NCBI GenBank assembly: GCA_030615855.1
Contig: JAUWYL010000002.1
Span: 1-64,000 of the forward strand
Direction of reading: 5' to 3'
Source of the DNA: a bacterium
Lineage (GTDB): Bacteria; UBP18; UBA7526
DNA: 64,000 bases
In this document: positions 45,001 through 63,745 of the stretch, one piece after another
How positions within the stretch are numbered: the first letter of the stretch is position 1
Layout: each line of letters starts with the position of its first letter
Made by a program: the position numbers and the translations under genes
Notes under the pieces: model-generated
Databases searched by the model: none
Seen by the model: only the letters and a program-made list of their open reading frames with translations
What the model was told of the DNA's origin: nothing

Positions 45001-46388
45001 TCTTTAAATCGATAATAATACTCAGGAATCTTTATTCTGGCAGAAGGGATTATTCCTCCTCCGGCAAAAATAACATCGCCGGTCCAAAAAGGAAAAACAA
45101 GAACCAGAAAAAGTAGCATGAAAATACAGGCGGCAGATAAAAAAGAAAGGCTTCTGCTAAATCTCTTAGATAAAAAGTCAACAGTGGAACTTATTCCTAG
45201 TCCTAAAAGTGGCGTCAGGGCCAAGGTAAGCATTAACCCCCATTTTTGAATATTGGCCTTAAAGGCTGTCCCCAATAAAGGAATATGTTGATAGAACCAG
45301 ATATTTACATTGGCTAAAGGGGGCTTGGCTCCTTTAACTAAAAATAATCCTACGATAGCTAAGATACTAAAATAGATACATCCCGTTCTTTTATATTCCG
45401 ATCTCTTCAATAGGGGTAAGAAACTGAAAAAGGGAATCAAGAAACTTATCAGAATAAAGGGCCGGGTAAGATAAAATTTAGCCCAACGATAGTAAGGAAC
45501 ACCCTCCCATTCGCCATGTAGAGACCAGAGGCCCCCTAATCTTAAGGCACCTAACAATTTTCCACTATTAAGTTTGAAAGTTTCTAAATTCGAAATGAAC
45601 CCTAAGGAGGGGTCAGAAACCGCTCTTTGTTCTTCAAAAATGATGCTCCCATAGGGAATAATCCAGAATAGATTCAGAGATAGCCAGAGGATAATTAAAA
45701 TAGATGTCAAGTAAACGGCCTGTTTTATAAGCCTGCGCTCTTTATTATTTATCAAGCAATAATAAAGTAAGTAAGAGAAGATAATAAACCAATGGACAAT
45801 AGCAAGCGCCGGATTAGCATATCCATAGGTTCCCATAACAAACCAGACAATTGCTAAAATGAAGATATATTTTAATCCCTTAGCAGAATTTAGGGATTTT
45901 ATAAATAATCCTAAGATAAGGGGACTTATGACATACGCTGGCATTAACATGCCAGAGGCCAAATGCCAGGGGATTTGAAGAACATAGGGATTCATCATAT
46001 AGAAAAAAGAAGCAGCAAGTTTCGCTATCCTCTTAAACCCCAGAATAGAACAGAGATAATACATCGCTAAACCAGAAAGGGCAAACCAGAGATAAAACAA
46101 CGATTTTTCAAAGAAGAGTAACGATAATCCAATATGTTCTGTAAGGGCGGCATAGAGGGTATAGGGCATGAGAAAAGCTAATTGGCCTGGAGCAGGATAA
46201 CCCAGAGAAATAGTATGGTCCCAAAAATATAAGGTATTATGAAAAAATTGTATTCTTGATAAAGGAAACCCAAAATCCCCTGTAGCAATAATAAAATTAC
46301 CCCGGAACCAGGTTAGGGATAGAAGGCCTAAGAATAGTATTAATCCCATATCAAGAGATAGGATTTTGGTCCTGGCATTCACTTTCAT
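42096..46388 (-). CDS. Giant multi-pass membrane protein (AftD/DUF3367- or YfhO-like GT-C candidate)
   Basis: 1430 residues. N-terminal half (about 1-440) has a dozen or more hydrophobic helices with FWDHTISLGYPAPGQLAFLMPYTLY near the start, as in GT-C lipid-linked sugar transferases. A large extracytoplasmic part follows (about 450-1350), with several beta-sandwich/jelly-roll-like repeats (EKYPSFEINYRL, LEKYPYINLIHQ) and two DLDNDGKTD/DFDADGKSD calcium-loop-like motifs. A final C-terminal helix pair ends FLGLFISGATFVGCIG. At least five hydrophilic stretches are encoded by short-repeat arrays: 42261-42296, 42468-42506, 42654-42700, 42921-43001 and 44184-44251. Overlaps the next gene as ATGA. 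Confidence 0.75.
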   Translation of the reverse strand: MKVNARTKILSLDMGLILFLGLLSLTWFRGNFIIATGDFGFPLSRIQFFHNTLYFWDHTISLGYPAPGQLAFLMPYTLYAALTEHIGLSLLFFEKSLFYLWFALSGLAMYYLCSILGFKRIAKLAASFFYMMNPYVLQIPWHLASGMLMPAYVISPLILGLFIKSLNSAKGLKYIFILAIVWFVMGTYGYANPALAIVHWFIIFSYLLYYCLINNKERRLIKQAVYLTSILIILWLSLNLFWIIPYGSIIFEEQRAVSDPSLGFISNLETFKLNSGKLLGALRLGGLWSLHGEWEGVPYYRWAKFYLTRPFILISFLIPFFSFLPLLKRSEYKRTGCIYFSILAIVGLFLVKGAKPPLANVNIWFYQHIPLLGTAFKANIQKWGLMLTLALTPLLGLGISSTVDFLSKRFSRSLSFLSAACIFMLLFLVLVFPFWTGDVIFAGGGIIPSARIKIPEYYYRFKEWTGQGKDSERIFSLPLSKSYNTIYLWEDTGYSGGDIIRFFSAKPVIYTNTGRGYEIPLLLSKQIEEKPTQVRAKRLFGLLNVKYILLHRDINWALIKHHPWWFRHNLGNLTAFLNSQEGIKRDRNFGKLNLYKLDDEYFLPRIYSATSPVFIKGDVKTLVPLTYTRYLDNKPVLFFSEQQEEKVLEKLLFQSKAFTFSNSNPLDLTLQILEPDYGIKIEDSKKPVVFEAKEEGVYQVYTKNEKVKIEIKSLEQGAESRERILQAPNSKFQASGNQWRKIGEIELKRGKYKIRVEEAPQELVIVPEEKVIQGEDEIRDYLKKAEDSPTHLFSKELSSDIDSWEERSLKGSFYLPSSGKYSLRAKVSPQYVKAPDYGLKERIGKGWSFVPRNVKYFASTGKDILTVSTYFDGDAREREFLGLKRNIEPIDLEKYPSFEINYRLTNSGVQKIEIILGIDLDNDGKTDTRISEELPATLKKQFSRHSFNLYEKVRNSLSQSLSANTSFHLVKIYLKISKREGLDCSTFSDKGWYKTSFKNFRLYGFSEDKCVKSRNYAFNERICLIKKLKRRKSRIILSRSFENLDLEKYPYINLIHQNEDPRNLLVSMTLHLDFDADGKSDGKVTQEGIPTENIPLEALQLAKIEFPNRDHYYLVKLDIGLSKNSELDIEERELTRIATAKTQKETERRQEKQGRESVFLQHLQIYNEEILPYKKARPLPPILKVDQKKVLLIKSGYWYIASPIYLEEGYHNLEALFPGLESKLDFMAIGGREWSRIERGRESTQIKGTESKDGPEISFQKINPTKYRVKVKNATEPFWLVFSESYHEGWRAYVKKSKIKNQKSKIKEENFDEIIAEYPGLGVKEAKHLQKFTPGDIRYLFRKADIKEHYLVNGYANGWWVPIEQFKIKNEKLKIKDIENKPEEFEIILYFWPQSLFYLGLFISGATFVGCIGYLVGTGVRRRKRKTKSR

Positions 46389-47893
46389 TTTCTCTTATTG
46401 CCGCCCTCCCATAATGCAGCGATTCCTTTCTTCTCTATTGAAGTCGGATTTAAGATAAACCGGGAAAAATTTCTTCCCAGTTTTAAGATATAAGTGAAGT
46501 CTTCGAGAGATCTTATTTTATTCAGATATCGCCAAGGTCTCTTGAGTCGGCTTCTCAAAAAACGAGAGAAGGCCTCTCCCTGGAGCTTTTTGAGTTCCTT
46601 ATGGGTGAAATACTTAGTCTTGCAGCCCCGAACGACATTAAGAGCCCCAGTTTTGGGAAGTAAGCCCTCCTTAAGGTAAATATCATACATTGGAGTTCCG
46701 GGAAGAGGGTTAGCAATATAGAAAATAGCAAAATCCAAGTAAGAATTAATAGCAAAGTTGATGGTATCCTCGATAGAATCAAGCTTTTCATAGGGAAAAC
46801 CAATGATAAACGTTCCGATAGTCCAGAGACCAATATGATGGGCATATTTTATAATTGCCTGCGCATAGTTATAATTGTAATTCTTGCCCAGAAACTTCAG
46901 GGTTTTTTTATTACCAGATTCAAGACCAAAGGTCAGACGATAGCACCCAGCTTGCTTCATTTTTCTCAGCAGTTCTTTATGGAGTAACCAAACCGCTATA
47001 CCATTAGGTGTAGTCCATTTGATATTAAGCTTTCGCTTAATAATTTCTTCGCATATTCCCATAAGTCGTTCCCTATCTACTGAAATACTATCGTCTAAGA
47101 AAGAAATCTCTTCTATATGATAATTCTTCACTAGTTCTTCGATTTCATCAACTACATTTTGAGGTGAACGGGCCCGCCATCTTCGGCCCCAAACCGTCTT
47201 GACGGCGCAAAAGATACAGTTTCCCGGACAGCCTCGGGAAGTAATTACGGTAGCCTCTCGCTTCCTCATTATATAATTGGTTCGGGTAGCAATTTCATGG
47301 AAATAAATATCCATTGGTAAAAGGTGACGTGCCGGAAAAGGCAGACTATTAAGCTCCTTAATAAAGGGGCGAGGTGGATTCTCAATTATCTTTCCCCTTT
47401 TGCGAATAAAGGTTCCCAGAATGTTATCTAAGTTTTTTGTTTTTTTAAAGTTCTTAACAATTTCTAAAAAAGTGATTTCACCCTCTCCTTTAACAACAAT
47501 ATCAACATTTTTATCTTTTAAAACCTCGCAGGGATCTGAAGAAGGGTGGGCACCTCCCATTACCACCAAAATTTTGGGGTCAACCTCTTTGACTATTTTT
47601 GCCGTCCCATAGGCATCTCGGGCATGAAGAGTAGATTGGCAGGTGATACCCACGATCTGAGGGGAATATTCTTTCAAGCGTTTCTTTATCTCTCTTATTC
47701 CCAAACCATAGCGCAATTTTTTTCCTACTATCCTTACTTCATGCGCCCCTTCAGCAGCAATATCTAAGACAAAAACATTAACTCCATGCTGCTCGAGATA
47801 GGCAGCTAAGTAGCCCAATCCCAAAACGGGGCTCACTCCCCCCGGATCATCAGGATAAACGGTTAAAAATGGATTAAGAAGTAAAACCTTCAT
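46385..47893 (-). CDS. B12-binding radical SAM protein (BchE/Methylase-like)
   Basis: 502 residues from the ATG at 47893 (MKVLLLNPFLTVYPDDPGG); the frame extends upstream over the GT2 gene. The N-terminal cobalamin-binding Rossmann domain has VVMGGAHPSSDPCEVL (about 100-115), and the radical SAM core has SRGCPGNCIFCAVK (CxxxCxxC, about 227-240). Members methylate or rearrange unreactive carbons in lipids, hopanoids, pigments and natural products. In this locus the substrate is unknown: a glycolipid, or a phosphonate as in Fom3, are possible. The start follows the GT2 stop by one base. Confidence 0.85.
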   Translation of the reverse strand: MKVLLLNPFLTVYPDDPGGVSPVLGLGYLAAYLEQHGVNVFVLDIAAEGAHEVRIVGKKLRYGLGIREIKKRLKEYSPQIVGITCQSTLHARDAYGTAKIVKEVDPKILVVMGGAHPSSDPCEVLKDKNVDIVVKGEGEITFLEIVKNFKKTKNLDNILGTFIRKRGKIIENPPRPFIKELNSLPFPARHLLPMDIYFHEIATRTNYIMRKREATVITSRGCPGNCIFCAVKTVWGRRWRARSPQNVVDEIEELVKNYHIEEISFLDDSISVDRERLMGICEEIIKRKLNIKWTTPNGIAVWLLHKELLRKMKQAGCYRLTFGLESGNKKTLKFLGKNYNYNYAQAIIKYAHHIGLWTIGTFIIGFPYEKLDSIEDTINFAINSYLDFAIFYIANPLPGTPMYDIYLKEGLLPKTGALNVVRGCKTKYFTHKELKKLQGEAFSRFLRSRLKRPWRYLNKIRSLEDFTYILKLGRNFSRFILNPTSIEKKGIAALWEGGNKRK

Positions 47894-47894
47894 T

Positions 47895-48839
47895 CTATCT
47901 CCAGATATTCTCAACCTTACCGCCCACGACGTATCGCAAGCCGTCAAAGCTTCCTTGCAGATGTGGCTTAAGGAATTGCCAACCACCATGGAAACGAATG
48001 ATTTTATAGATAAAATAAAAGGTGAAGAGAGGAAAAAAGAAAAGCATAAAGATAATAAAATTTAATTTAGGTGCATGGTGCTTCATAAAAATTACCCTGT
48101 TTCTAGCAAAATAATAGGCTCTCATGGGAAAATTAAACCCCATACCCCTGATTCCTTTAATACTCTCCTTTGAGCCCATTCGGTGCCAAAGTTTAGCCGT
48201 GGGACAAAAGATAACTTTAAAGCCGGCTTTTCGTGCCCGAAAACCATAATCAGTATCCCCATAGGTCATAAATAAAGCCTCATTATGCCCCTTAAGTTTA
48301 TTAACTACTTTTCTAGTAGCTAAATAGGCGGTAGGGGCAAATTGCGTTTCCCGAACTTGATCCCACTGTCCTTTATCCTCCTCATTAGCTCCGATATTTT
48401 TTGTTTGACTGGTTAAAAGATTCACATATGAACCAGCGTACCAAATCACATCTTTACAGTCATAGTAATACATTTTGGGGCAAACGACCCCTACCCGAGA
48501 ATCATTTTCGGCTATTTTTGTAAGTTCAGTCAAAAGTTTTTTATCAACAATTGTATCGGAGTCCAGGAACAAGATATATTCCCCTTTAGCATACTTTTGC
48601 CCTAAATTTTTGCCACCATTGAGCCCCAGGTTCTCTTTTGCTACTACTACCTTAACCCTCGGAAATTTTTCTCTTACTGCCTGGGCTGTTCCATCACTTG
48701 AGGCATTATCTACCAAAATCACCTCAAAATTGGGATAATCCATCCTCAGAACCGAATTGAGGCAATCTAAGACAATACTTTTGCGATTTCTGGTGGTAAT
48801 AATTATTGAAGCTAACTTTACATCCATCTTTCTAACCAT
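47895..48839 (-). CDS. GT2-family glycosyltransferase
   Basis: 314 residues (an internal ATG at 48827 is an alternative). GT-A fold: ASIIITTRNRKSIVLDCLNSVL (about 10-31), VDNASSDGTAQAV, LGLNGGKNLG, LFLDSDTIVD with the DxD at about 93-95, then YGDTDYGFRARKAGF and FARNRVIFM. Rhamnosyl/galactofuranosyl-like. One hydrophobic segment at about 255-275 near the C-terminus. The start overlaps the asnB stop, so it is co-translated. Confidence 0.88.
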   Translation of the reverse strand: MVRKMDVKLASIIITTRNRKSIVLDCLNSVLRMDYPNFEVILVDNASSDGTAQAVREKFPRVKVVVAKENLGLNGGKNLGQKYAKGEYILFLDSDTIVDKKLLTELTKIAENDSRVGVVCPKMYYYDCKDVIWYAGSYVNLLTSQTKNIGANEEDKGQWDQVRETQFAPTAYLATRKVVNKLKGHNEALFMTYGDTDYGFRARKAGFKVIFCPTAKLWHRMGSKESIKGIRGMGFNFPMRAYYFARNRVIFMKHHAPKLNFIIFMLFFFPLFTFYFIYKIIRFHGGWQFLKPHLQGSFDGLRYVVGGKVENIWR

Positions 48840-50749: not shown

Positions 50750-51682
50750 TTATTTTATGTTTGTTTCACTATTACTTCCTAACAAGAGATAACTAAAGAT
50801 AGGTCCTAAAATGAACACAAAAAATAAGGTAACTACTCTGATCAATCCAGCAACTAATAAACTTTGAGCGGGAGTTATACTAAATATCTTGGCACCTAAT
50901 ATGATAACTCCTTCTGTGATACCTAAAGCACCTGGAGTTAGGTTTATTAAAGTTGAGAAGGATAAAAGGGTAGAAATTAGTAAACTTTTTAGCATTGAAA
51001 TATCAATAGAGAAAGCCTGGAAAGCGAAATAAATACTATACAATTTTACCATAGAAATTAATAGAATTATCACCAGCAACTTAAAAGCAAGTTTCTGGTT
51101 ACTTTTAATGCGGTACCAACTATTTACAAAGTTACTAATGGTATTTAAACATCGATTGCCAAAATTCGGAATCTGGGGTGAAAAGATAATAATCAATGAA
51201 AGTACAAAGAATGCTACGCTAAAAAAAGAAAACAGGGGCAGATTAAAAATACCATAATGGAGATAGATTAACCCCATACATATTAGACCTATCAGGGAGT
51301 TAACAAAAAAAGTTATTAAATATAGGGCAGCCATGGTGCTTAAAAATGTAGCATAAGTGAAGTTGTGTCTTTTCTTTAAGTAAACGGCCCTTATCCCGGC
51401 ACCACCACGGAAGGGCATAAGATAGTTTCCCATAGTAGAAACAACTGATAGGCCAAACCATTCTCTAAAAGTTAGTTTAACTTCAAAAGAATCCAGCAAA
51501 ACCTTTGTGAAACATCCTAACAGAACTAAATTTAAAAAAATCATAAAAACAAGAACCATTAATGGAAAAGGAGAAAGTTGAAAAATTTTTGTAAATTCTG
51601 GTAAATGTTGCTTAACATAAATAGCAATCAAGCCGATAATTATCAGCGAAATTACCCATGATAAACATATTTTTAGCTTCAT
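50750..51682 (-). CDS. Flippase-like membrane protein (UPF0104/LPG synthase TM family)
   Basis: 310 residues, about eight hydrophobic helices. ICLSWVISLIIIGLIAIYV at the start, MPFRGGAGIRAVYLKKRHN (the conserved loop) at about 92, and LTPGALGITEGVIILGA at about 248 are signatures of the UPF0104 family (YbhN, AglD, MprF transmembrane part). Members flip or transfer lipid-linked groups. Next to the CDP-alcohol phosphatidyltransferase it may move the phospho- or phosphono-lipid made there. Confidence 0.82.
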   Translation of the reverse strand: MKLKICLSWVISLIIIGLIAIYVKQHLPEFTKIFQLSPFPLMVLVFMIFLNLVLLGCFTKVLLDSFEVKLTFREWFGLSVVSTMGNYLMPFRGGAGIRAVYLKKRHNFTYATFLSTMAALYLITFFVNSLIGLICMGLIYLHYGIFNLPLFSFFSVAFFVLSLIIIFSPQIPNFGNRCLNTISNFVNSWYRIKSNQKLAFKLLVIILLISMVKLYSIYFAFQAFSIDISMLKSLLISTLLSFSTLINLTPGALGITEGVIILGAKIFSITPAQSLLVAGLIRVVTLFFVFILGPIFSYLLLGSNSETNIK

Positions 51683-51707: not shown

Positions 51708-52424
51708 CTATCCTTTTATTATTGGATTCTGTTGGTCAAACTGCGTGCTTCTAATTTTTTTATTCAAATATAAAAATGAAAATAGATAAAACAAATAACT
51801 GTAAAGCGCAATCACTAAAAGGTAAAGTTTCATAGCATTAACAATGACAAATATTGTTGTTAGAAAATGAATATTTGTTCTACCATAAAGAAATAACCTC
51901 ACAAACCGGCCTTTCGTTTTTAACTCCCTTTCCAGCTCAGAACTTCCATCAGGTAATTCCAATTTGGTTATAAAAAAAATAGTATCAACCAGCAGCCTTC
52001 CACTAACAGCAAACGCACAAAATACCCATATTAAAGGTTCTGGTTTCATCCGATACAATCCAATAGATATTGCAATAAACAACAATGGATCGACAAATCT
52101 GTCAACAACAGAATCAAGCCATGCACCATACACTGACGTTAAGGATTTCTCCTTGGCTATAAGACCATCGAGAAAATCAAATAATATTGACATATGAATA
52201 CATACCAATCCGGCAAATAAATATCTCCACTCTCCTATCCCGAAAAACAACATCGCCAACATAGCAAGGATAAATCCGGCAAGTGTAATCTGATTAGGAG
52301 TTACCCTAAATTTTACAATTATACCTGAGAGCTTCTTCGTCAGCCACCAATAGGGAAGATTTGAATACTGAACTATATATGGATGAGTGTCTATAAATTT
52401 CTTGCCTTTACTTGTTACCATCAA
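51708..52424 (-). CDS. CDP-alcohol phosphatidyltransferase family protein
   Basis: 238 residues. About six membrane helices. The CDP-AP motif D(x)2DG(x)2AR(x)8G(x)3D(x)3D reads DFLDGLIAK...G...D...D at about 88-117, with Lys where Arg is usual. All acidic metal ligands are present. It transfers a phospho-alcohol from CDP-alcohol to an acceptor (or CMP-phosphonate to a lipid). With a CMP-phosphonate route 9 kb upstream it is a good candidate to attach hydroxyethylphosphonate to a diglyceride, as an inference. Start overlaps the GT4 stop (ATGA). Confidence 0.85.
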   Translation of the reverse strand: MMVTSKGKKFIDTHPYIVQYSNLPYWWLTKKLSGIIVKFRVTPNQITLAGFILAMLAMLFFGIGEWRYLFAGLVCIHMSILFDFLDGLIAKEKSLTSVYGAWLDSVVDRFVDPLLFIAISIGLYRMKPEPLIWVFCAFAVSGRLLVDTIFFITKLELPDGSSELERELKTKGRFVRLFLYGRTNIHFLTTIFVIVNAMKLYLLVIALYSYLFYLFSFLYLNKKIRSTQFDQQNPIIKG

Positions 52425-55194: not shown

Positions 55195-56652
55195 TTACTC
55201 CGTTTGCTGCAACATACCTCGATAATACAAATATCTCCTGAAAAAAGAACCAGTACCTCTAATTAATCTCTTCAAATCCTGGAATGAGCTAGAGTATCTA
55301 ATCAATGTCTTAAGAATATAGCTGGGGCGGAGATAGAATTTCTTCCATGCTAAAGCGAAAGCTCTTTCCAAATCCTCTTTGCTCATTTCTGCCGTCACAA
55401 TTACTGCTTTTGCTGCGCCATCAAAATCTCGCCAGTTTTTTGCTTTTAATAAACCTTTTGATTTTAGTTGGCTATAATATTCAGTCCCAGGAAGTGGCGT
55501 CACAATTGAAAACTGAACAGCATAGGGGTCTAATTCTATAGCAAATTCAATTGTTTCATTAACTGTATCCCAATTTTCACCAGACAAACCAAACATAAAT
55601 GTCCCATAATCTTTTATGCCAACCTCTTTTGTTATTCTAAAAGCTTCTCTTACTTGATTTAAGGTTATCTGTTTTTTACATCTATCAAGAATTTTTTGAG
55701 AACCAGACTCCACACCGTACTTGATAAATTCGCACCCGGCTTCCTTCATTGCGCTTAACATCTCTCTGTCTACATCTACTCTTCCAAAACAACTCCAGGA
55801 AATCTTGATGCCTCTTTTTATTATCTCATTGCATATAGATACTACCCTCCTTTTCCCAATGGTAAAAGTATCATCATCAAATTCAATTGCCTTCACTCTG
55901 TACTTATCTTTTAAAATTTCTATCTCATCCACCACATTCTCGGCACTTCTTGTTCTTAATTTATGTCCATACATCACCTGCGGCCAAAGACAGTAAGTGC
56001 AACGATAAGGACAACCTCTGCTGGATATCATAAGGACAGATGGCGATTTATATAAATGTGGGTCATAATATTTCATGTTAAACAAATGCCATGCTGGGAA
56101 AGGTAACTTGTCAAGGTCAGAAATCAACGGACGATCAGGATTCTCAACTACTTCTCCCTCTTTTCTAAAAGATAACCCCTTAATATTCTCTACTTTTTCA
56201 CCATCTCTGAGGCACTTACACAAATCAAGTATAGTATATTCAAATTCTCCTCTCAAAATATAATCAATATAGCCATAAGAGTCTAACAAGTCTTTTGAAA
56301 AATAAGTTGAATGTGCGCCAATCAGAGCAACTTTGGCTGACGAGTTTTCCTTTATCTTCTGTACCATTGATAAATCATTTTCGATAGAAGGAGTTGACGT
56401 TTCGACTATAACTAAACCATAAGAATTCTTCTGGACGATTTCTGCCACCTTCTGTTCATCAAAATCCTCGGCTACCGCATCAACGAAGTCAACAGTAAAC
56501 CCCTCTTTCTCCAACACCACCGCCGTATAGGCCATATAAATCGGGAATGGCAAAACTTTATCTTTCCGAGTATGGGGCCATCTACTATTACTTCTGACTC
56601 CATACCCTGATTCGCTATACCACGGAGGGTTTAAAAGCAAAATTTTAAACAT
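55195..56652 (-). CDS. B12-binding radical SAM protein
   Basis: 485 residues. Cobalamin-binding domain (about 1-150: LLLNPPWYSESGYGVRSNS, then VALIGAHSTYFSKDLL) and radical SAM domain with SRGCPYRCTYCLWP (CxxxCxxC, about 209-222), then DDDTFTIGKRRV and the FGLSGENWDTVN segment. A similar architecture is used by Fom3 to C-methylate CMP-hydroxyethylphosphonate, and by many lipid/polyketide methylases. Which of these applies cannot be read from sequence. Confidence 0.86.
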   Translation of the reverse strand: MFKILLLNPPWYSESGYGVRSNSRWPHTRKDKVLPFPIYMAYTAVVLEKEGFTVDFVDAVAEDFDEQKVAEIVQKNSYGLVIVETSTPSIENDLSMVQKIKENSSAKVALIGAHSTYFSKDLLDSYGYIDYILRGEFEYTILDLCKCLRDGEKVENIKGLSFRKEGEVVENPDRPLISDLDKLPFPAWHLFNMKYYDPHLYKSPSVLMISSRGCPYRCTYCLWPQVMYGHKLRTRSAENVVDEIEILKDKYRVKAIEFDDDTFTIGKRRVVSICNEIIKRGIKISWSCFGRVDVDREMLSAMKEAGCEFIKYGVESGSQKILDRCKKQITLNQVREAFRITKEVGIKDYGTFMFGLSGENWDTVNETIEFAIELDPYAVQFSIVTPLPGTEYYSQLKSKGLLKAKNWRDFDGAAKAVIVTAEMSKEDLERAFALAWKKFYLRPSYILKTLIRYSSSFQDLKRLIRGTGSFFRRYLYYRGMLQQTE

Positions 56653-56676: not shown

Positions 56677-57540
56677 TTACTCTTCACTCCTCTCCAATCT
56701 TAAGTTGGCTATCTGTTCGGCAATAAGGCCCATCATAAAAATTATCACTGCCGTTGTCATTAAAAATAGTGAAAGTCCGGTATATCTTCCTCCAGGAGTA
56801 GAGAAGATTTTGTAAATAGCGTGGGTCAAGCCCATAACAAAGAACATAAAACTCATAGGTAAAAACACGCGCAAAGGGGTAAACAAGGTGGCAATTCTTA
56901 ATATTATTAGAATAAATTTTAGACCATCGGATACTATATTTATCTTACTTTTTCCACTTCTTCTTTTCCTTGTTTTTATGGGAATATAGCCCACGCTGTA
57001 TCCCGCCCGGAATAAAGCCAAGGTGATGGTTGAAGGGTAGGAAAAATGATTGGGCAAAAGATATATGAACTTCTTTGCTACTTCCGCTTTTATTGCTCTG
57101 AAACCGCTGGTTAAATCCTGAACCTTTTCATTGCTAAGATAAGAAGCAAAACTGTTATATACTTTATTTGCCAATTTCCTATGCCCGGGAGCGGGTGAAT
57201 CTTTCTGCCTTGCACCAACTACCATATCGTAGCGGGTTATCTGCTCTAAAATCCTGGGGATATCATCAGGGTTATGTTGTCCATCGCCATCCATGGTTAT
57301 CCATACATCTCCCCTGGCCTTCCTCATTCCGGTCTTAACAGACGCGCCATTGCCTTTATTATAAGGATGGCTAATCAGTAAGGCACCAGCCTTTTTCGCC
57401 TCCTCCCCGGTATTGTCACAGGAACAATCATCTACCACAACAACCTGGTCATTTTCACCTATGACTGACTTCACCTCTCTCACTAAATTACCGATAACCA
57501 ACTCCTCATTATATGCCGGAATTATAACCGTTACCTTCAT
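56677..57540 (-). CDS. GT2 polyprenol-phosphate glycosyltransferase (DPM1/ArnC-like)
   Basis: 287 residues. VTVIIPAYNEELVIGNLVREV, VVDDCSCDNT, GNGASVKTGMRKA, MDGDGQHNPDD (DxD at about 89-91), DLTSGFRAIK, and two C-terminal helices (about 215-235 and 255-275) as in lipid-phosphate-sugar synthases. Start overlaps the upstream gene as ATGA. Confidence 0.87.
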   Translation of the reverse strand: MKVTVIIPAYNEELVIGNLVREVKSVIGENDQVVVVDDCSCDNTGEEAKKAGALLISHPYNKGNGASVKTGMRKARGDVWITMDGDGQHNPDDIPRILEQITRYDMVVGARQKDSPAPGHRKLANKVYNSFASYLSNEKVQDLTSGFRAIKAEVAKKFIYLLPNHFSYPSTITLALFRAGYSVGYIPIKTRKRRSGKSKINIVSDGLKFILIILRIATLFTPLRVFLPMSFMFFVMGLTHAIYKIFSTPGGRYTGLSLFLMTTAVIIFMMGLIAEQIANLRLERSEE

Positions 57541-59552
57541 TTTGGACTCCCTTCACTAATTTCTATTACTTTGTATAACCTATTAGAATAGAGTATATTT
57601 AGAAACTCTTTTTGTTTCACATGATCCATTAATATTTCGAAATACTTATTATCAACCAGTAATAGCCAATGGGTAAAATATTTTTTAGTCGAATCTGTAA
57701 CCTTTCCTCCGGGAAATTTCTCTTCCAACCATTTTCCCTTATTATCCATTACACACTTGGCTTCTAAATAACGATCTCTATCTGAAATCAGAAAGGTAGC
57801 TATGCAAGACTCATGCTTTCCGCTAGCAAATTTATCACCCAACAGTACCAGACGTTTTTTGATATTGTTTCTTTGAATAAACCGAATAGCTCTAACATAG
57901 TATTCGTTCCACATAATACGTACCTTATATTCTTCATCATAGAAGTATAAATTGTTCACATCATAACACACTTCCTCAAACCAGTGGTCAAGTTCGGTCT
58001 TGGTAGAGGTAGTAATTTGATGAAAATTGTATAAGTAATATTCAAAACCTATGAGGATCATGATTAAAACTAACCAAATATATCTAAATCGTAAATAAAT
58101 AAAATGGCATACGAAATAAATCATCAAGGCTAAAAATAAGGATAAAAAAAGAAATTCAAGAAGATATGTTCGCCCTATACCACCAATAACACTAAGACTA
58201 AGCCAATTAATTATATACTTCGTGCCATAAAAATGTATGCAATAATATAAAATAGCAATAAAACTTATTCCAATGATATACCACGAAAGATGCTTACGAA
58301 TAAAATTGATAAGAGAAGAATAAAATTTCTGAATCAAGAGACACATTGCATATAAAAACAAAAGAACAAAACCAATCAGACAGATAATTTTCATAGGTTC
58401 GTAACGGCCACCCGTCGAATTAAGCTGCATTCCCCAATGATTGATAAATAAAAAAATCATGATAAAAGCTGTATTCAATTTAAATTCTCTACGAGAATCA
58501 TAACCTGAGAACATAATAGGCAGACTTAGCGCAGCGATAAAATAATATAGTGGATTGAAATGATAATAATGGGTTATTAACATAAAATTTACCGAAAGTA
58601 AGATTAGCATATAAACCAATTTCTCTTCCAATGAAAAACTTGTTTGCCCGGAAACATAAATTAAAGAAAAAATTAAAAGAGTAAATAAATAAGTGGCAAT
58701 CCAGGCTCCCAAAAAATTATAAAAATATATAGCCTGTATTACATCAAAACCAAATATACCGGGCAGTCGAAATATTTTGAAGACAACGATAATAACGGTG
58801 AGAATGGTTAAAAAGGAGGAGAGGAAAAAATTCAGATTCGCTTTCGGACGTCGGGTCAACAATAAAAATATCATAACGATATTCAAGATGGAAAGATAGA
58901 TGAACATTGCTATGACAAAATTTAATATCGGGACAAATTGTATTTTACCAAATATTGACAATAAATAAAAAACAGGGGCAAATAGCAAATAATATTTATA
59001 CAATCCGCCAACATTGCTAAAATCAAAGCCATAGCCACCTTCACCAAATTTGTCAAAATAGGACCATCTAAACAACATCATTTGAGCATAATTATTTTCG
59101 TCCACATTCCCGAAAAAAGTATCTGGCTTCTCAAGTGGAATCAAAAAACCTGGAGTAAAATATAGAATGGCAAACAACAAGAGCATTATTAGCGCTAAAA
59201 AACCAATGGATGAATAAGAAAATGATTTAATCCATTTCCAGAATATGTTCTTAACGCTTGAGGTCAATTTTTTAAACGTTGGAAATGCGAGATAGACCAA
59301 AAATGCGCTTCCCAAAAAATATAATATGTCACCAGAAATCATACCGATTGGAGAATCCCAGTAATATATATGATGTTCCCAGGGAATAAAAAGAGAGAAA
59401 AGAAAGGATAGGCCATACTTCCCTTGCCGATGAAGAATGGGACCGATAGCGAATATCCTAATCATAATATAGGCAAATAATAACATGAAGTTAATAATAA
59501 ATGAAGCATAAAAATATGTTGAAAAAAAACTATTCTCAATCTCTTTTTTCAT
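57537..59552 (-). CDS. Multi-pass membrane protein, GT-C-like
   Basis: 671 residues with about 12 hydrophobic helices. Large loop after helix 1 (FAIGPILHRQGKYGLSF, WDSPIGMISGDILYFLG), and a soluble C-terminal region (about 540-671) with KRLVLLGDKFASGKHESCIATF. Matches the general pattern of dolichol/undecaprenol-type sugar transferases or polymerases, without a recognisable named family. The ATG overlaps the stop of a small remnant frame. Confidence 0.65.
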   Translation of the reverse strand: MKKEIENSFFSTYFYASFIINFMLLFAYIMIRIFAIGPILHRQGKYGLSFLFSLFIPWEHHIYYWDSPIGMISGDILYFLGSAFLVYLAFPTFKKLTSSVKNIFWKWIKSFSYSSIGFLALIMLLLFAILYFTPGFLIPLEKPDTFFGNVDENNYAQMMLFRWSYFDKFGEGGYGFDFSNVGGLYKYYLLFAPVFYLLSIFGKIQFVPILNFVIAMFIYLSILNIVMIFLLLTRRPKANLNFFLSSFLTILTVIIVVFKIFRLPGIFGFDVIQAIYFYNFLGAWIATYLFTLLIFSLIYVSGQTSFSLEEKLVYMLILLSVNFMLITHYYHFNPLYYFIAALSLPIMFSGYDSRREFKLNTAFIMIFLFINHWGMQLNSTGGRYEPMKIICLIGFVLLFLYAMCLLIQKFYSSLINFIRKHLSWYIIGISFIAILYYCIHFYGTKYIINWLSLSVIGGIGRTYLLEFLFLSLFLALMIYFVCHFIYLRFRYIWLVLIMILIGFEYYLYNFHQITTSTKTELDHWFEEVCYDVNNLYFYDEEYKVRIMWNEYYVRAIRFIQRNNIKKRLVLLGDKFASGKHESCIATFLISDRDRYLEAKCVMDNKGKWLEEKFPGGKVTDSTKKYFTHWLLLVDNKYFEILMDHVKQKEFLNILYSNRLYKVIEISEGSPK

Positions 59553-59676: not shown

Positions 59677-60549
59677 CTACTTTCCAATGTTTTCTAAAAT
59701 TCTCACCATACTTTTTTTGTCTATTCTTCTAGGGCCATCGTTAATCTTATTGTATCCCATAATCTTGTCTGCAATCATTTCAACGTTAAAATTCTTTATC
59801 TTTGGTGGAATAAAGGATCTCTTCAATAATGTAACTAATTCTTCCGTTGAACCAAGATTAAACAATTCTGGTAATCCTTCAAAATCCATATATTCGACAA
59901 AATGAGGAAGTAACATTCCACAGGCAGTTCCATGGCTGACACCATATTTGATTGTGATAGGATAGGATGCAGCATGCACAACATTTGTTTTAGCTATTGC
60001 TATCGCTTGCCCAGCCAGATTTCCAGTAGTTATTAACTTGTTAATATCATTTTTGCTTAAGTGGTGACTGAGCTTATTTAAATATTTGTTAATCAAATAG
60101 ATGGCTTTTTTTGAGTAGTTTTTGCTTTGCAAAGTAGCATTTTTGGACCAAAGAGATTCTATAGCATGAGACAAAGCGTCAAAAGTAGTTGACTGCCTAA
60201 CACTAAAGGAGAGAGCTTTAGGCATCCTGTAATCCATTTTTAGTACTGGCTTTTTTGTAGGGATGGATATTTTTTCTCTTCCCCAGACAGTAGCATAAGG
60301 GGTCATAGATGCTCCGGCAGCAGTTGTGGGAATTGCTATACATCTTTTATCTTTAGAAATAATTTTCGCCGCATCTATAACACTTCCTCCACCAACGCCT
60401 ATAACTACATCTTTACTATTTTTTATCTCTAATACTTCTTCAGTTGGTGGTTTTGTAATCTTTAAAAAACTTACATCTCTATATTTTTTTGAAATCAGTT
60501 TTGCATAATCCTTCGTATGCTTGCTATGAATTATCAGAGCAGATTGCAT
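59677..60549 (-). CDS. Iron-type alcohol dehydrogenase, probable phosphonoacetaldehyde reductase (FomC/PhpC-like)
   Basis: 290 residues from the ATG at 60549, chosen because it overlaps the upstream stop; the longer frame reads through the ppd gene. NAD(P)-binding GVGGGSVIDAAKI (about 51-63), metal-ligand DALSHAIESLWS (D-x3-H at about 124-128) and VSHGTACGMLLPH (H at about 212 and 222). Shorter than the usual 380 residues. Group III metal-dependent dehydrogenases in phosphonate clusters (FomC, PhpC, DhpG) reduce phosphonoacetaldehyde to 2-hydroxyethylphosphonate. The adjoining pepM and ppd genes make that the likely reaction. Confidence 0.82.
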   Translation of the reverse strand: MQSALIIHSKHTKDYAKLISKKYRDVSFLKITKPPTEEVLEIKNSKDVVIGVGGGSVIDAAKIISKDKRCIAIPTTAAGASMTPYATVWGREKISIPTKKPVLKMDYRMPKALSFSVRQSTTFDALSHAIESLWSKNATLQSKNYSKKAIYLINKYLNKLSHHLSKNDINKLITTGNLAGQAIAIAKTNVVHAASYPITIKYGVSHGTACGMLLPHFVEYMDFEGLPELFNLGSTEELVTLLKRSFIPPKIKNFNVEMIADKIMGYNKINDGPRRIDKKSMVRILENIGK

Positions 60550-61000
60550 TTCTAAATCGCCTCTTGATTTGTTTTGGTGACAAAGGTATTCTTGGTGCAT
60601 CGCCTTTTTCTTTGCTAACCTTCAGGACCACTGTATTTGGTGCAATTTTTGCAAAATTAATAACATCAGAGCAAGTTGGCTGTGCGCCAGTCGAACTATG
60701 GCAACCGTTATCTAAAATGTAATGCTTTAGATTTTTTGGATTTAACTTTTTATGCAACGCTAATGTTCCCAGAGACATAAGTGTCTCTGCATCTCCCGAT
60801 ATGACAATAACCTTATGCTTTGAATTAATAGCAATTCCCAGTCCGATTCCTAAAGTGCATCCCATGCTACCTTGCACATAGAAATTTCTCGGCCTGTCTT
60901 TTACAGCATAAAGCTCCCTAGAAATCATTCCTGTAGAAGATATGATTATCTCATCTTTTACATTCTTTACTATTTTTCTAATGGCATCAATTCGTTTCAT
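60524..61000 (-). CDS. Phosphonopyruvate decarboxylase, C-terminal (PP/TPP-binding) subunit
   Basis: 158 residues. SSTGMISRELYAVKDRPRNF, then MGCTLGIGLGIA, VISGDAETLMSLGTLA (the GDG of the TPP-binding motif is GDA here) and LDNGCHSSTGAQPT, matching the second half of Ppd enzymes (typical 'LDN..H.STGGQ'). Ppd converts phosphonopyruvate to phosphonoacetaldehyde plus CO2, driving the unfavourable PepM step. Single-gene Ppd is about 380 residues; here the protein is split from the preceding gene with a four-base overlap, as in the ComDE sulfopyruvate decarboxylase. Confidence 0.88.
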   Translation of the reverse strand: MKRIDAIRKIVKNVKDEIIISSTGMISRELYAVKDRPRNFYVQGSMGCTLGIGLGIAINSKHKVIVISGDAETLMSLGTLALHKKLNPKNLKHYILDNGCHSSTGAQPTCSDVINFAKIAPNTVVLKVSKEKGDAPRIPLSPKQIKRRFRNAICSDNS

Positions 61001-61335
61001 TGTATCAGGAGTTTACAATTTTTGTATTCTAATAGTTTTAACAACCTCTTGGTGATTTTCCCCATAAAAGCGTGATGTTTAGGTTTATTTCTAACACTGA
61101 TCAATAAATCTATTTTTATATCATACGGTTTTAATAATGAGGTTATTATATCAACCATATTTCCTAGTCCACTGTTCTGGAGAAATACAAGGGGCTTCTT
61201 CCCTACCAAATAGGCACCCACAGCTAAAGCCATAGCCTCGTCTTCCCTTGTGCAGGGAATATAGTTCTCTATTTTGTCTGTGAAATCCTTTAATCTTGAA
61301 CCGGGCACTCCCACGATAAAATTATATTTTTTCAT
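60997..61335 (-). CDS. Phosphonopyruvate decarboxylase, N-terminal (Pyr) subunit
   Basis: 112 residues. GVPGSRLKDFTDKIE (about 9), CTREDEAMALAVGAYLVGKKPLVFLQNSGLGNM (about 28-60; the Glu of REDEA activates TPP) and KPKHHAFMGKITKRLLKLL (about 83-101). These match the Pyr domain of Ppd. The active site would form between this subunit and the one at 60524, so a heteromer is expected. Overlaps both neighbours by four bases (ATGA), implying a fixed ratio. Confidence 0.88.
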   Translation of the reverse strand: MKKYNFIVGVPGSRLKDFTDKIENYIPCTREDEAMALAVGAYLVGKKPLVFLQNSGLGNMVDIITSLLKPYDIKIDLLISVRNKPKHHAFMGKITKRLLKLLEYKNCKLLIQ

Positions 61336-62612
61336 CTTGTTCCATACCTCCGGTCAATCTCTTCCACTTCTCTAATTGGCGTTAAGTCTCTCATATCATC
61401 CAAAGTAGCAGATAATTCTTTCTCTACAGGGTAGACAGAATCGTGTTTTTTTATAATTTTCAAGCTTTCTCTTATTGCTTTGATTTTAACCCTTTCTGTC
61501 TGGTTAGCCAGAACTATCACCGAGAATCCCGCATTAAATAATTGTTTATTTGTAAGTTGGGGAAATTTAGTGGGAACTATAACTAATGGAATCTTTGATT
61601 TCCAATACTTGGGTATTTCCAAAGCCTCTTTACCAGTCGATTCCCTACTATGGGTTAACACCATATCTGCCCCGGACTTAACATAATGCTCTGCTCTTTT
61701 AATAGCCTCAGCCATTCCATAACCTCTTATCAACGCTTCTGTTCTTGCTACTATTACAAAGTCCTTCGTTTTTTGGGCATCTTTTCCAACTCTAATTTTT
61801 GCCCCATGTTCTTCCATAGACAACAATGGTATTTTCCCGCCCCACAGTGAATTTATTTTGGGAAAAATATTATCTTCCACACAAATCCCCGAGCATCCTA
61901 TTTTTTCAAATTCTTTTACGGTTCTTATGAAATTATGAAGCCCTCCATATCCATTGTCCACGTCTACCAAAACCGGAAGGCTGGTAGCGTCAACAATTGT
62001 CTTGGCTGCGTTTAACATTTCAGTCATAGTGATACATCCATTATCCGCCAAGCCCAATCTTGCCGATGCTTCAAATCCGGAAACCCAGATTCCATCAAAT
62101 TCTGCTTCTTCTATCAACTTAGCAGTTATCGCATCACCGGCCGAAACTATCACCAGCTTTTTCTTCTTTTCTAATAAGTAGTTAAGTCTTTTTGTTCTTC
62201 TTATTTCCTGTAGCAGTTTTGTAGTTGTAATATATGGATAACATTCAACCTGTACAACTCTACATAATTTCTGTTCTTCTGCTTTTTTATATAAAGGTGG
62301 AAGCCAGTCATCTCCATGAACAGCTATTGATACTTTATATTTCTTCAGATTATCAAACATTGTTGGCTCTCTTAAATCCATGCAGTCTTCCACGACTTTA
62401 TCAACTTCCCTTATAGACTCTATTATCTTTTTTCTGTCTTCAAAAGGTATGAGTGGTTCTCTTTTGTATCTTTTGATGACATCATCTGGATGTAAACCAA
62501 TAATCAAGAAATCCCCTAATTTCTTCGCCTTTTTTATAAGTTCTAAGTGGCCGCGATGAAATAAATCACCGCCCATAGTTGCATATACCACTTTTTTATT
62601 TTTCATTTTCAT
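61332..62612 (-). CDS. pepM: Cytidylyltransferase-PEP mutase fusion (Fom1-like)
   Basis: 426 residues. Residues 1-140 are a nucleotidyltransferase of the HxGH type (GDLFHRGHLELI at about 15-26, YITTTKLLQEI near 130), as in CTP:phosphoethanolamine and glycerol-3-P cytidylyltransferases. Residues about 150-426 are PEP mutase/isocitrate-lyase superfamily: VSAGDAITAKLIEEAEFDGIWVSGFE, LVDVDNGYGG (metal Asp pair) and CVEDNIFPKINS. The usual EDKxxxxxNS motif has Asn for Lys in position 3, but the catalytic Lys (of FPK) and Asn (of NS) are kept. Fom1 of fosfomycin pathways has this same fusion: the PepM part makes phosphonopyruvate, and the N-terminal part attaches CMP to hydroxyethylphosphonate. Confidence 0.9.
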   Translation of the reverse strand: MKMKNKKVVYATMGGDLFHRGHLELIKKAKKLGDFLIIGLHPDDVIKRYKREPLIPFEDRKKIIESIREVDKVVEDCMDLREPTMFDNLKKYKVSIAVHGDDWLPPLYKKAEEQKLCRVVQVECYPYITTTKLLQEIRRTKRLNYLLEKKKKLVIVSAGDAITAKLIEEAEFDGIWVSGFEASARLGLADNGCITMTEMLNAAKTIVDATSLPVLVDVDNGYGGLHNFIRTVKEFEKIGCSGICVEDNIFPKINSLWGGKIPLLSMEEHGAKIRVGKDAQKTKDFVIVARTEALIRGYGMAEAIKRAEHYVKSGADMVLTHSRESTGKEALEIPKYWKSKIPLVIVPTKFPQLTNKQLFNAGFSVIVLANQTERVKIKAIRESLKIIKKHDSVYPVEKELSATLDDMRDLTPIREVEEIDRRYGTR

Positions 62613-62620
62613 TTCCTCCT

Positions 62621-63745
62621 TTAGTTGACTTCTTCATTAGTTCTACCTCCAAAATCCTGAATTAGCAAAGCAGCAATATCTTTATTCTCACTTATTTGCG
62701 AAGCATTAAATCTACTCCCATAAGCAATGAGGGGAATCTTTTGTTCGTGGATTGAACCGTGGGATCTAATATTTACCTCTTCAAAATCCTTCCTTAATCT
62801 TCCAAAGACTGTATTCTTATCAGCTAAAACAAAAATATCTCCTATTCTTTGAGGAAACAAATTATATCTTTGGCTGGCCTCCTGTCGGGAAATCACTTCC
62901 TCTACGCCCTCAAGATGCAATAGGATGGCTATGGCTTGATCAAAATCGGACTTCTTCTCAAGATAGATATAAGCAGCACCCCCCATATTCTGATGATGGA
63001 TAATATAGCGGTCCTTAATAATAGGAATTACTTCACATTGAATTTCCTGATCTGCCAAAATTCTACCAAGATCCAATGCTTTCGTCTTATTAGACATTCC
63101 GTGATCTGCGGTAATAATAGTTTCTATATTAGAATCAATATTTACTATTTTGCCTATTAACCTATCGATTTCTTGTAGATAATACTCAGATTGTGCATCC
63201 CCGGGTTTAAACTTATGCATAACATAATCCGTAGTACTAAGATACATCAAATCAATGAATTTTTTAGATAGAAGCTCACAGGCGGCCTTCAAGAGCCATA
63301 GATCTGCTTCTATTGAATAGATCGAAGGAGGAGGTCCAATTTTATCAATAATCCACTTTAAAGGTCTTTCTACTGACATAGAGATACTTGTTCCTCTATT
63401 TAAAAGTATTCTTAATTTATCTTTTGAGGTCAGGAGAGCAGAACTTCTCCCCACCGCTTTCCCTTTTTCAAAAATAGTCTCAGTCAGAATATAGTCCGCT
63501 GATTCCATATAAGTCCCTTTACCAGTTTTGGGATTCAAAAAATAATTTGCCGTAATACCGTGGATTTTGGGATAGGTACCGGTCACCAATGAGACATTAT
63601 TTATATTGGTCACCGTAGGCACCATAGCCCGAATTTCTTTATAAAATCCTTCTTTTGCCAGGCGGTCCAGATTAGGAGTAGGGCTCTTCTCAATATACTC
63701 TGGACTACATCCATCCAGGCAGATAAAAAGTAACTTCTTATTCAC
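62621..63745 (-). CDS. PhnA-like phosphonoacetate hydrolase family (alkaline phosphatase superfamily)
   Basis: 374 residues from a GTG at 63745 (GGAGAGA ribosome-binding site). Metal Asp11 in FICLDGCSPEY, nucleophile Thr46 in PTVTNINNVSLVTGTYP, HGITANYFLNPKTGKG, LLTSKDKLRILL, later STTDYVMHKFKPGD, TADHGMSNK and RSHGSIHEQKIP for the remaining zinc ligands. This order and the TN.NN.S.VTG..P..HGI.(G/A)NYF stretch match PhnA, which splits phosphonoacetate to acetate and phosphate. A related phosphonate ester or diester activity cannot be excluded. Odd in a biosynthetic cluster: possible proof-reading, detoxification, or a transferase. Confidence 0.82.
   Translation of the reverse strand: MNKKLLFICLDGCSPEYIEKSPTPNLDRLAKEGFYKEIRAMVPTVTNINNVSLVTGTYPKIHGITANYFLNPKTGKGTYMESADYILTETIFEKGKAVGRSSALLTSKDKLRILLNRGTSISMSVERPLKWIIDKIGPPPSIYSIEADLWLLKAACELLSKKFIDLMYLSTTDYVMHKFKPGDAQSEYYLQEIDRLIGKIVNIDSNIETIITADHGMSNKTKALDLGRILADQEIQCEVIPIIKDRYIIHHQNMGGAAYIYLEKKSDFDQAIAILLHLEGVEEVISRQEASQRYNLFPQRIGDIFVLADKNTVFGRLRKDFEEVNIRSHGSIHEQKIPLIAYGSRFNASQISENKDIAALLIQDFGGRTNEEVN

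Follow-up and report, generated by a model that had tools for sequence, protein, structure and literature searches.

The window analysed here, the whole 64,000-nucleotide stretch of contig JAUWYL010000002.1 from a UBP18 bacterium, encodes a cytidylyltransferase-PEP mutase-like fusion, two decarboxylase-like proteins and an alcohol dehydrogenase in a locus that also carries glycosyltransferase and flippase-like genes, which raises the question of what these four genes make and where their product goes. Our reading of the sequence is that they likely form a compact donor cassette for CMP-2-hydroxyethylphosphonate (CMP-HEP), feeding surface glycan or lipid assembly.

Layout of the locus and predicted pathway

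The four ORFs lie on the minus strand (62612-59677) and overlap or nearly do so (Table 1). An initial annotation had described this interval as a fusion, a phosphonopyruvate decarboxylase (Ppd) pair and a reductase, and both its coordinates and its assignments are borne out by the ORFs and domain matches; the interval takes in all four genes but omits the PhnA-like gene and the CDP-alcohol transferase. The G+C content of the locus was 36%, in comparison to 46% in a housekeeping stretch.

Table 1. Features of the cassette and of the surrounding locus in the window
Feature	Coordinates	Strand	Remarks
Cytidylyltransferase (N-terminal, PF01467)-PEP mutase-like (PF13714) fusion	61332..62612	-	motif EDNIFPKINS
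Phosphonopyruvate decarboxylase-like alpha half	60997..61335	-	TPP enzyme N-terminal domain; aligned glutamate in TREDEA kept
Phosphonopyruvate decarboxylase-like beta half	60524..61000	-	TPP enzyme C-terminal domain
Short Fe-type alcohol dehydrogenase, presumed phosphonoacetaldehyde reductase	59677..60549	-	290 aa; start probably 60549 over 60600
PhnA-like (phosphonoacetate hydrolase) gene, alkaline phosphatase superfamily	62621..63745	-	8 bases upstream of fusion
Divergent CDP-alcohol phosphotransferase (PF01066), candidate CMP-HEP transferase	51708..52424	-	
Flippase-like LPG_synthase_TM protein	50750..51682	-	
Polyprenyl-phosphate-type GT2 glycosyltransferase	56677..57540	-	
671-aa membrane protein, apparently multi-spanning	57537..59552	-	directly after reductase; no family match

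In the pathway that we propose, the PepM-like domain would turn PEP into phosphonopyruvate, the split decarboxylase pair would yield phosphonoacetaldehyde, the short Fe-type alcohol dehydrogenase (Fe-ADH) would give HEP, and the fused cytidylyltransferase, with HEP as its presumptive substrate, would form CMP-HEP from HEP and CTP. A separate CDP-donor-class transferase, here probably that at 51708-52424, would then move HEP onto a lipid or glycan of the surrounding locus. The route from PEP to CMP-HEP had been suggested in the initial annotation and appears to be the best reading, as an enzyme whose active site looks intact is present for each step.

The PhnA-like gene retains many residues common to both solved phosphonoacetate hydrolases, including (T)xKDKLR and TADHGM, and a full-length match to it was found solely in the window genome among 11 genomes searched. 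The same island holds two radical SAM-type genes, one (55195-56652) with a B12-binding domain and a resemblance to HpnJ and another (46385-47989) assigned by eye from sequence.

The fusion protein and its PEP mutase-like domain

The 426-aa fusion matched CTP_transf_like (PF01467) at residues 16-123 (63.7 bits, cut-off 21) and PEP_mutase (PF13714) at residues 146-386 (181.7 bits, cut-off 31.5), and scored 252.5 bits against the PepM model TIGR02320, under its equivalog cut-off of 319.55. The cytidylyltransferase domain retains the HRGH and TTTK motifs and resembles the Fom1 cytidylyltransferase (5x3d) as well as ethanolamine-phosphate and glycerol-3-phosphate cytidylyltransferases.

All seven copies of the clade to which this fusion belongs carry EDNxFPKxNS in place of the mutase signature EDKxxxxxNS. 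EDK was present in the 76 other loci, and the single EDN among the 77 non-clade rows was that of L028, a duplicate of clade member L027. In Mytilus edulis (M. edulis) PepM numbering, S46, G47, D58, D85, D87, E114, K120, N122, S123, R159, H190 and N239 are kept in all clade copies; the changes relative to canonical PepM are K116 (of EDK) to N in all copies, L48 to F and W237 to L. The gating-loop NS is mutase-type, in comparison to TS in the solved phosphonopyruvate hydrolase. Because testing found neither the EDK feature nor a score above the model cut-off, we place the EDN clade apart from canonical PepM, although its function is predicted to be the same.

The three substitutions, of which L48 to F is shared with phosphonopyruvate hydrolase, would fit an alternative in which the PepM-like domain is another enzyme of the isocitrate lyase superfamily, a hydrolase or lyase, and no phosphonate is made; the position of the clade outside the canonical PepMs in our tree and the existence of relatives with FPK(R/K)CS loops point the same way. 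We consider this alternative unlikely, given that K120, N122 and S123, like all residues for metal and substrate, are of the mutase type, that a cytidylyltransferase is fused and a decarboxylase pair adjacent in six copies, and that the best fold matches of the PepM domain in the fusion model were solved PEP mutases. The predicted structure of the fusion (pLDDT 82, pTM 0.66) was weaker than that of the alcohol dehydrogenase.

A second PepM-like group, consisting of L139-L144 from an Omnitrophota-type phylum and L165-L170, has a nucleotidyltransferase-like C-terminal region and the motif ED[NAS]xFPK[RK]CS. In L170 the PepM-like gene adjoins Ppd-like and PhnW-like genes, so this group may also make phosphonates outside the published motif.

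A split decarboxylase and a short alcohol dehydrogenase

The 112-aa ORF corresponds to the N-terminal half of a TPP decarboxylase and the 158-aa ORF to the C-terminal half; together they amount to 270 aa, in comparison to about 375 aa in one-chain enzymes, with the aligned glutamate and the GDx...N TPP motif present. Both halves matched TIGR03297 as well as sulfopyruvate decarboxylase alpha/beta, all under curated cut-offs: the two chains scored 86.1 and 140.7 bits against TIGR03297 (cut-off 312.5), and the beta half fared marginally better as sulfopyruvate decarboxylase (146 versus 141 bits).

The short Fe-ADH had the phosphonate-associated TIGR03405 as its best family, with 111.4 bits and thus under the equivalog cut-off of 423.7. 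Its start is probably at 60549 and not at 60600, the former being preferred because MQSAL is also where the relatives in L029 and L030 start. The protein is without an N-terminal stretch and without the loop after the GGGS region, and retains D124, H128, H192 and H206, with the metal-site residues and the nucleotide-binding GGGS present. An AlphaFold2 model (pLDDT 90.1) matched Fe-ADHs in Foldseek with TM scores of 0.73-0.86 of the query, and a sulfoacetaldehyde reductase was among these matches.

The likeness of the halves to sulfopyruvate decarboxylase and of the ADH fold to sulfoacetaldehyde reductase could be interpreted as a sulfonate route, in which a ComDE-like pair acts on sulfopyruvate and the reductase gives isethionate. 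Cytidylylation requires a phosphate or phosphonate group. On a sulfonate route the fused PepM and cytidylyltransferase would have no function, and we regard such a route as very improbable. Several observations nevertheless count against CMP-HEP as the product: the PepM lacks EDK, all four proteins score under the equivalog cut-offs of the pathway models, the beta half slightly favours sulfopyruvate decarboxylase, and in one genome with a clade copy (G784) the beta half was not detected genome-wide. The G784 genome may be incomplete.

Another CMP-phosphonate could also be the product, such as CMP-AEP formed via an unlinked aminotransferase, and PhnW does replace the ADH at 7 of the 76 related fusion loci. 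This outcome is distinctly unlikely, since every one of the six complete copies has the Fe-ADH beside the decarboxylase and PhnW scored above cut-off in none of the six genomes. No PhnW was found in the cluster, and genome-wide searches gave just sub-cut-off TIGR02326 matches, as in all 14 control genomes; the AEP route was rejected on these grounds.

Distribution and horizontal spread of the cassette

Scanning 84,980 species genomes gave at least 583 candidate stretches encoding a relative, the best 80 of which were retained. Identity to the window fusion was 77-84% in four of these 80 loci (two of them being one contig under two names) and 31-37% in the rest. Extra searches covered 384 genomes of an Omnitrophota-type phylum, 340 of an Elusimicrobia-type phylum, 16 of a further, small phylum and 6 of the phylum to which the window belongs, after which the clade comprised seven copies in six genomes from at least four phyla: G000 (the window), G060 (L027), G061 (L029), G062 with two copies (L157 and L158, the latter being the same contig as L030), G316 (L156) and G784 (L159). 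Within the clade, identity of the fusions to the window protein is 72-85%. Among the six genomes searched in the window's phylum, the cassette was absent from the window's five relatives.

Six of the seven copies, from at least four phyla, share the gene order fusion, alpha half, beta half, short ADH, with one gene inserted within the module in L030. Module proteins are 61-88% identical to their window counterparts, the exception being the ADH of L156 (47%); the seventh copy (L159) has only the fusion of the module genes. A search of other genomes for a conserved neighbourhood, which the initial annotation had called for, thus recovered the same module in five further copies, and the four-gene arrangement is not due to chance because the same genes recur in the same order in these unrelated genomes. 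LepA of the window genome is 51-54% identical to that of G060, G061 and G062, in comparison to 77-85% for the fusion there and 72% in G316. The fusion is far more alike between phyla than LepA, and the cassette has therefore spread horizontally.

Relationship to Fom1 and to other phosphonate gene clusters

The cassette had been likened to Fom1, Fom2 and FomC of fosfomycin biosynthesis, and the likeness holds for the predicted chemistry (PEP to CMP-HEP) and the domain order of the fusion, but judged from the sequences its kinship to Fom1 is uncertain. The clade PepM domain is about 31-38% identical to Fom1-type fusions, 38-47% to many PepMs without this cytidylyltransferase and 36-38% to others. 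In our tree all Fom1-type fusions grouped together, and the EDN clade fell outside the branch (95/97) joining them to canonical PepMs. Tree and identities favour the possibility that the fusion arose independently in the EDN clade, albeit not significantly, as forcing both kinds of fusion together was 6.1 log units worse and not rejected (AU test, p 0.27). The cassette further differs from the fosfomycin system in its split decarboxylase, shorter enzymes, EDN-clade PepM and glycan/lipid locus, and no later fosfomycin genes were seen near it.

The initial annotation was aware of no published system having exactly these genes, a statement that is not supported. PF01467-PepM fusions are already on record, the domain being reported as fused to 23.6% of PEP mutases (PMC6697681), and an Fe-ADH lies near the fusion in 59 of the 76 next-best fusion loci from many phyla, a share that is no population estimate as these loci were picked by likeness to the window protein. 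Most of the 59 have a full-length Ppd, TagF-type genes occur in a substantial minority of the 76, and median lengths in other fusion loci are 375 aa for Ppd and 369 aa for ADH. The gene set is therefore not new, and pathways of this general kind are both known and widespread; what is new is the compact EDN variant. The earlier interpretation is supported in part, its general pathway being the best reading, and missed the EDN motif, the compact enzymes, the horizontal spread and the PhnA-like gene.

Among the closest known counterparts are PEP mutase operons with PF01467 fusions, linked to phosphonoglycans or phosphonolipids (PMC6697681; our loci L031-L106), which share the fusion, decarboxylase, Fe-ADH and sometimes a TagF-type transferase, and differ in having EDK, mostly a GLKKNS-type loop, full-length Ppd and ADH, and PepM domains of just 31-38% identity to those of the EDN clade. 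Clusters for CMP-AEP tailoring (PntC; PMC6697681) likewise activate a phosphonate by cytidylylation for surface tailoring, but use AEP and a LicC/MobA-type cytidylyltransferase, where the present cassette would use HEP made via the ADH and a TagD/ECT-type enzyme. Marine producers of HEP and methylphosphonate (Prochlorococcus SB, SAR11; PMC8931226) also have an HEP intermediate near glycan assembly genes and are defined by an EDK-motif PepM, in contrast to the EDN found here.

Published inventories of phosphonate producers required EDKXXXXXNS (PMC6697681, PMC8931226), and one survey (PMC6697681) reports that the motif was absent from 22 of 905 domain-fused proteins, which it set aside. The EDN clade would be dropped by such a filter, and the phosphonate capacity of candidate phyla may thus be undercounted.

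Matches to the fusion in a phage collection were of low identity. The two best entries, labelled Bacteriophage sp. (L023, MT837901.1; L024, MT836947.1), carry cytidylyltransferase-PepM and Ppd genes together with genes for glycans or the AEP pathway, L024 having PhnW and apparent surface-polymer genes, and both look like bacterial contigs.

Transferases and surface assembly

Six of the seven copies have a CDP-donor-class headgroup transferase at their locus, of TagF type in three and of CDP-alcohol type in three. In L157 and L158 the gene immediately after the ADH is of TagF type (PF04464). In L159 a TagF-type gene comes immediately after the fusion, and a second such gene is present, the EDN fusion being flanked by both. 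The four PF04464 genes above cut-off genome-wide in the six module genomes all lie at the module, either immediately behind the ADH or no more than four genes away from that for PepM, and the window genome had none above cut-off genome-wide. Divergent PF01066 genes lie directly after the ADH in L027, four genes on in L029 and seven genes on in the window. The distance of this candidate from the window cassette, and of the CDP-alcohol phosphotransferase in G316 (about 25 kb from the module), weighs against the CMP-HEP reading.

TagF-type and CDP-alcohol-type transferases use CDP-linked donors. Both classes therefore fit a CMP-phosphonate product, and the role in surface decoration put forward earlier appears to be the best reading, as CDP-donor-type transferases travel with the cassette; we infer the acting transferase and the acceptor on the lipid or glycan. 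Little is known of how an activated phosphonate is transferred to a surface polymer or lipid, and the tight link of the cassette to two unrelated CDP-donor-type transferase classes provides candidates for this step. A more ambitious account, which we offer tentatively and would not yet favour, is that the CMP-HEP cassette evolved separately, is reduced in size and horizontally mobile, contains a PEP mutase without EDK and serves varied surface loci of candidate phyla through interchangeable TagF- or CDP-alcohol-type transferases.

Several CDP-alcohol phosphotransferases near PepM genes (L027:5085-5816, L029:15200-15997, L075, L057 and L097) are without the last Asp of the motif DxxDGxxAR...GxxxDxxxD, which is replaced by G, H, H, S and S, respectively; the window enzyme retains it.
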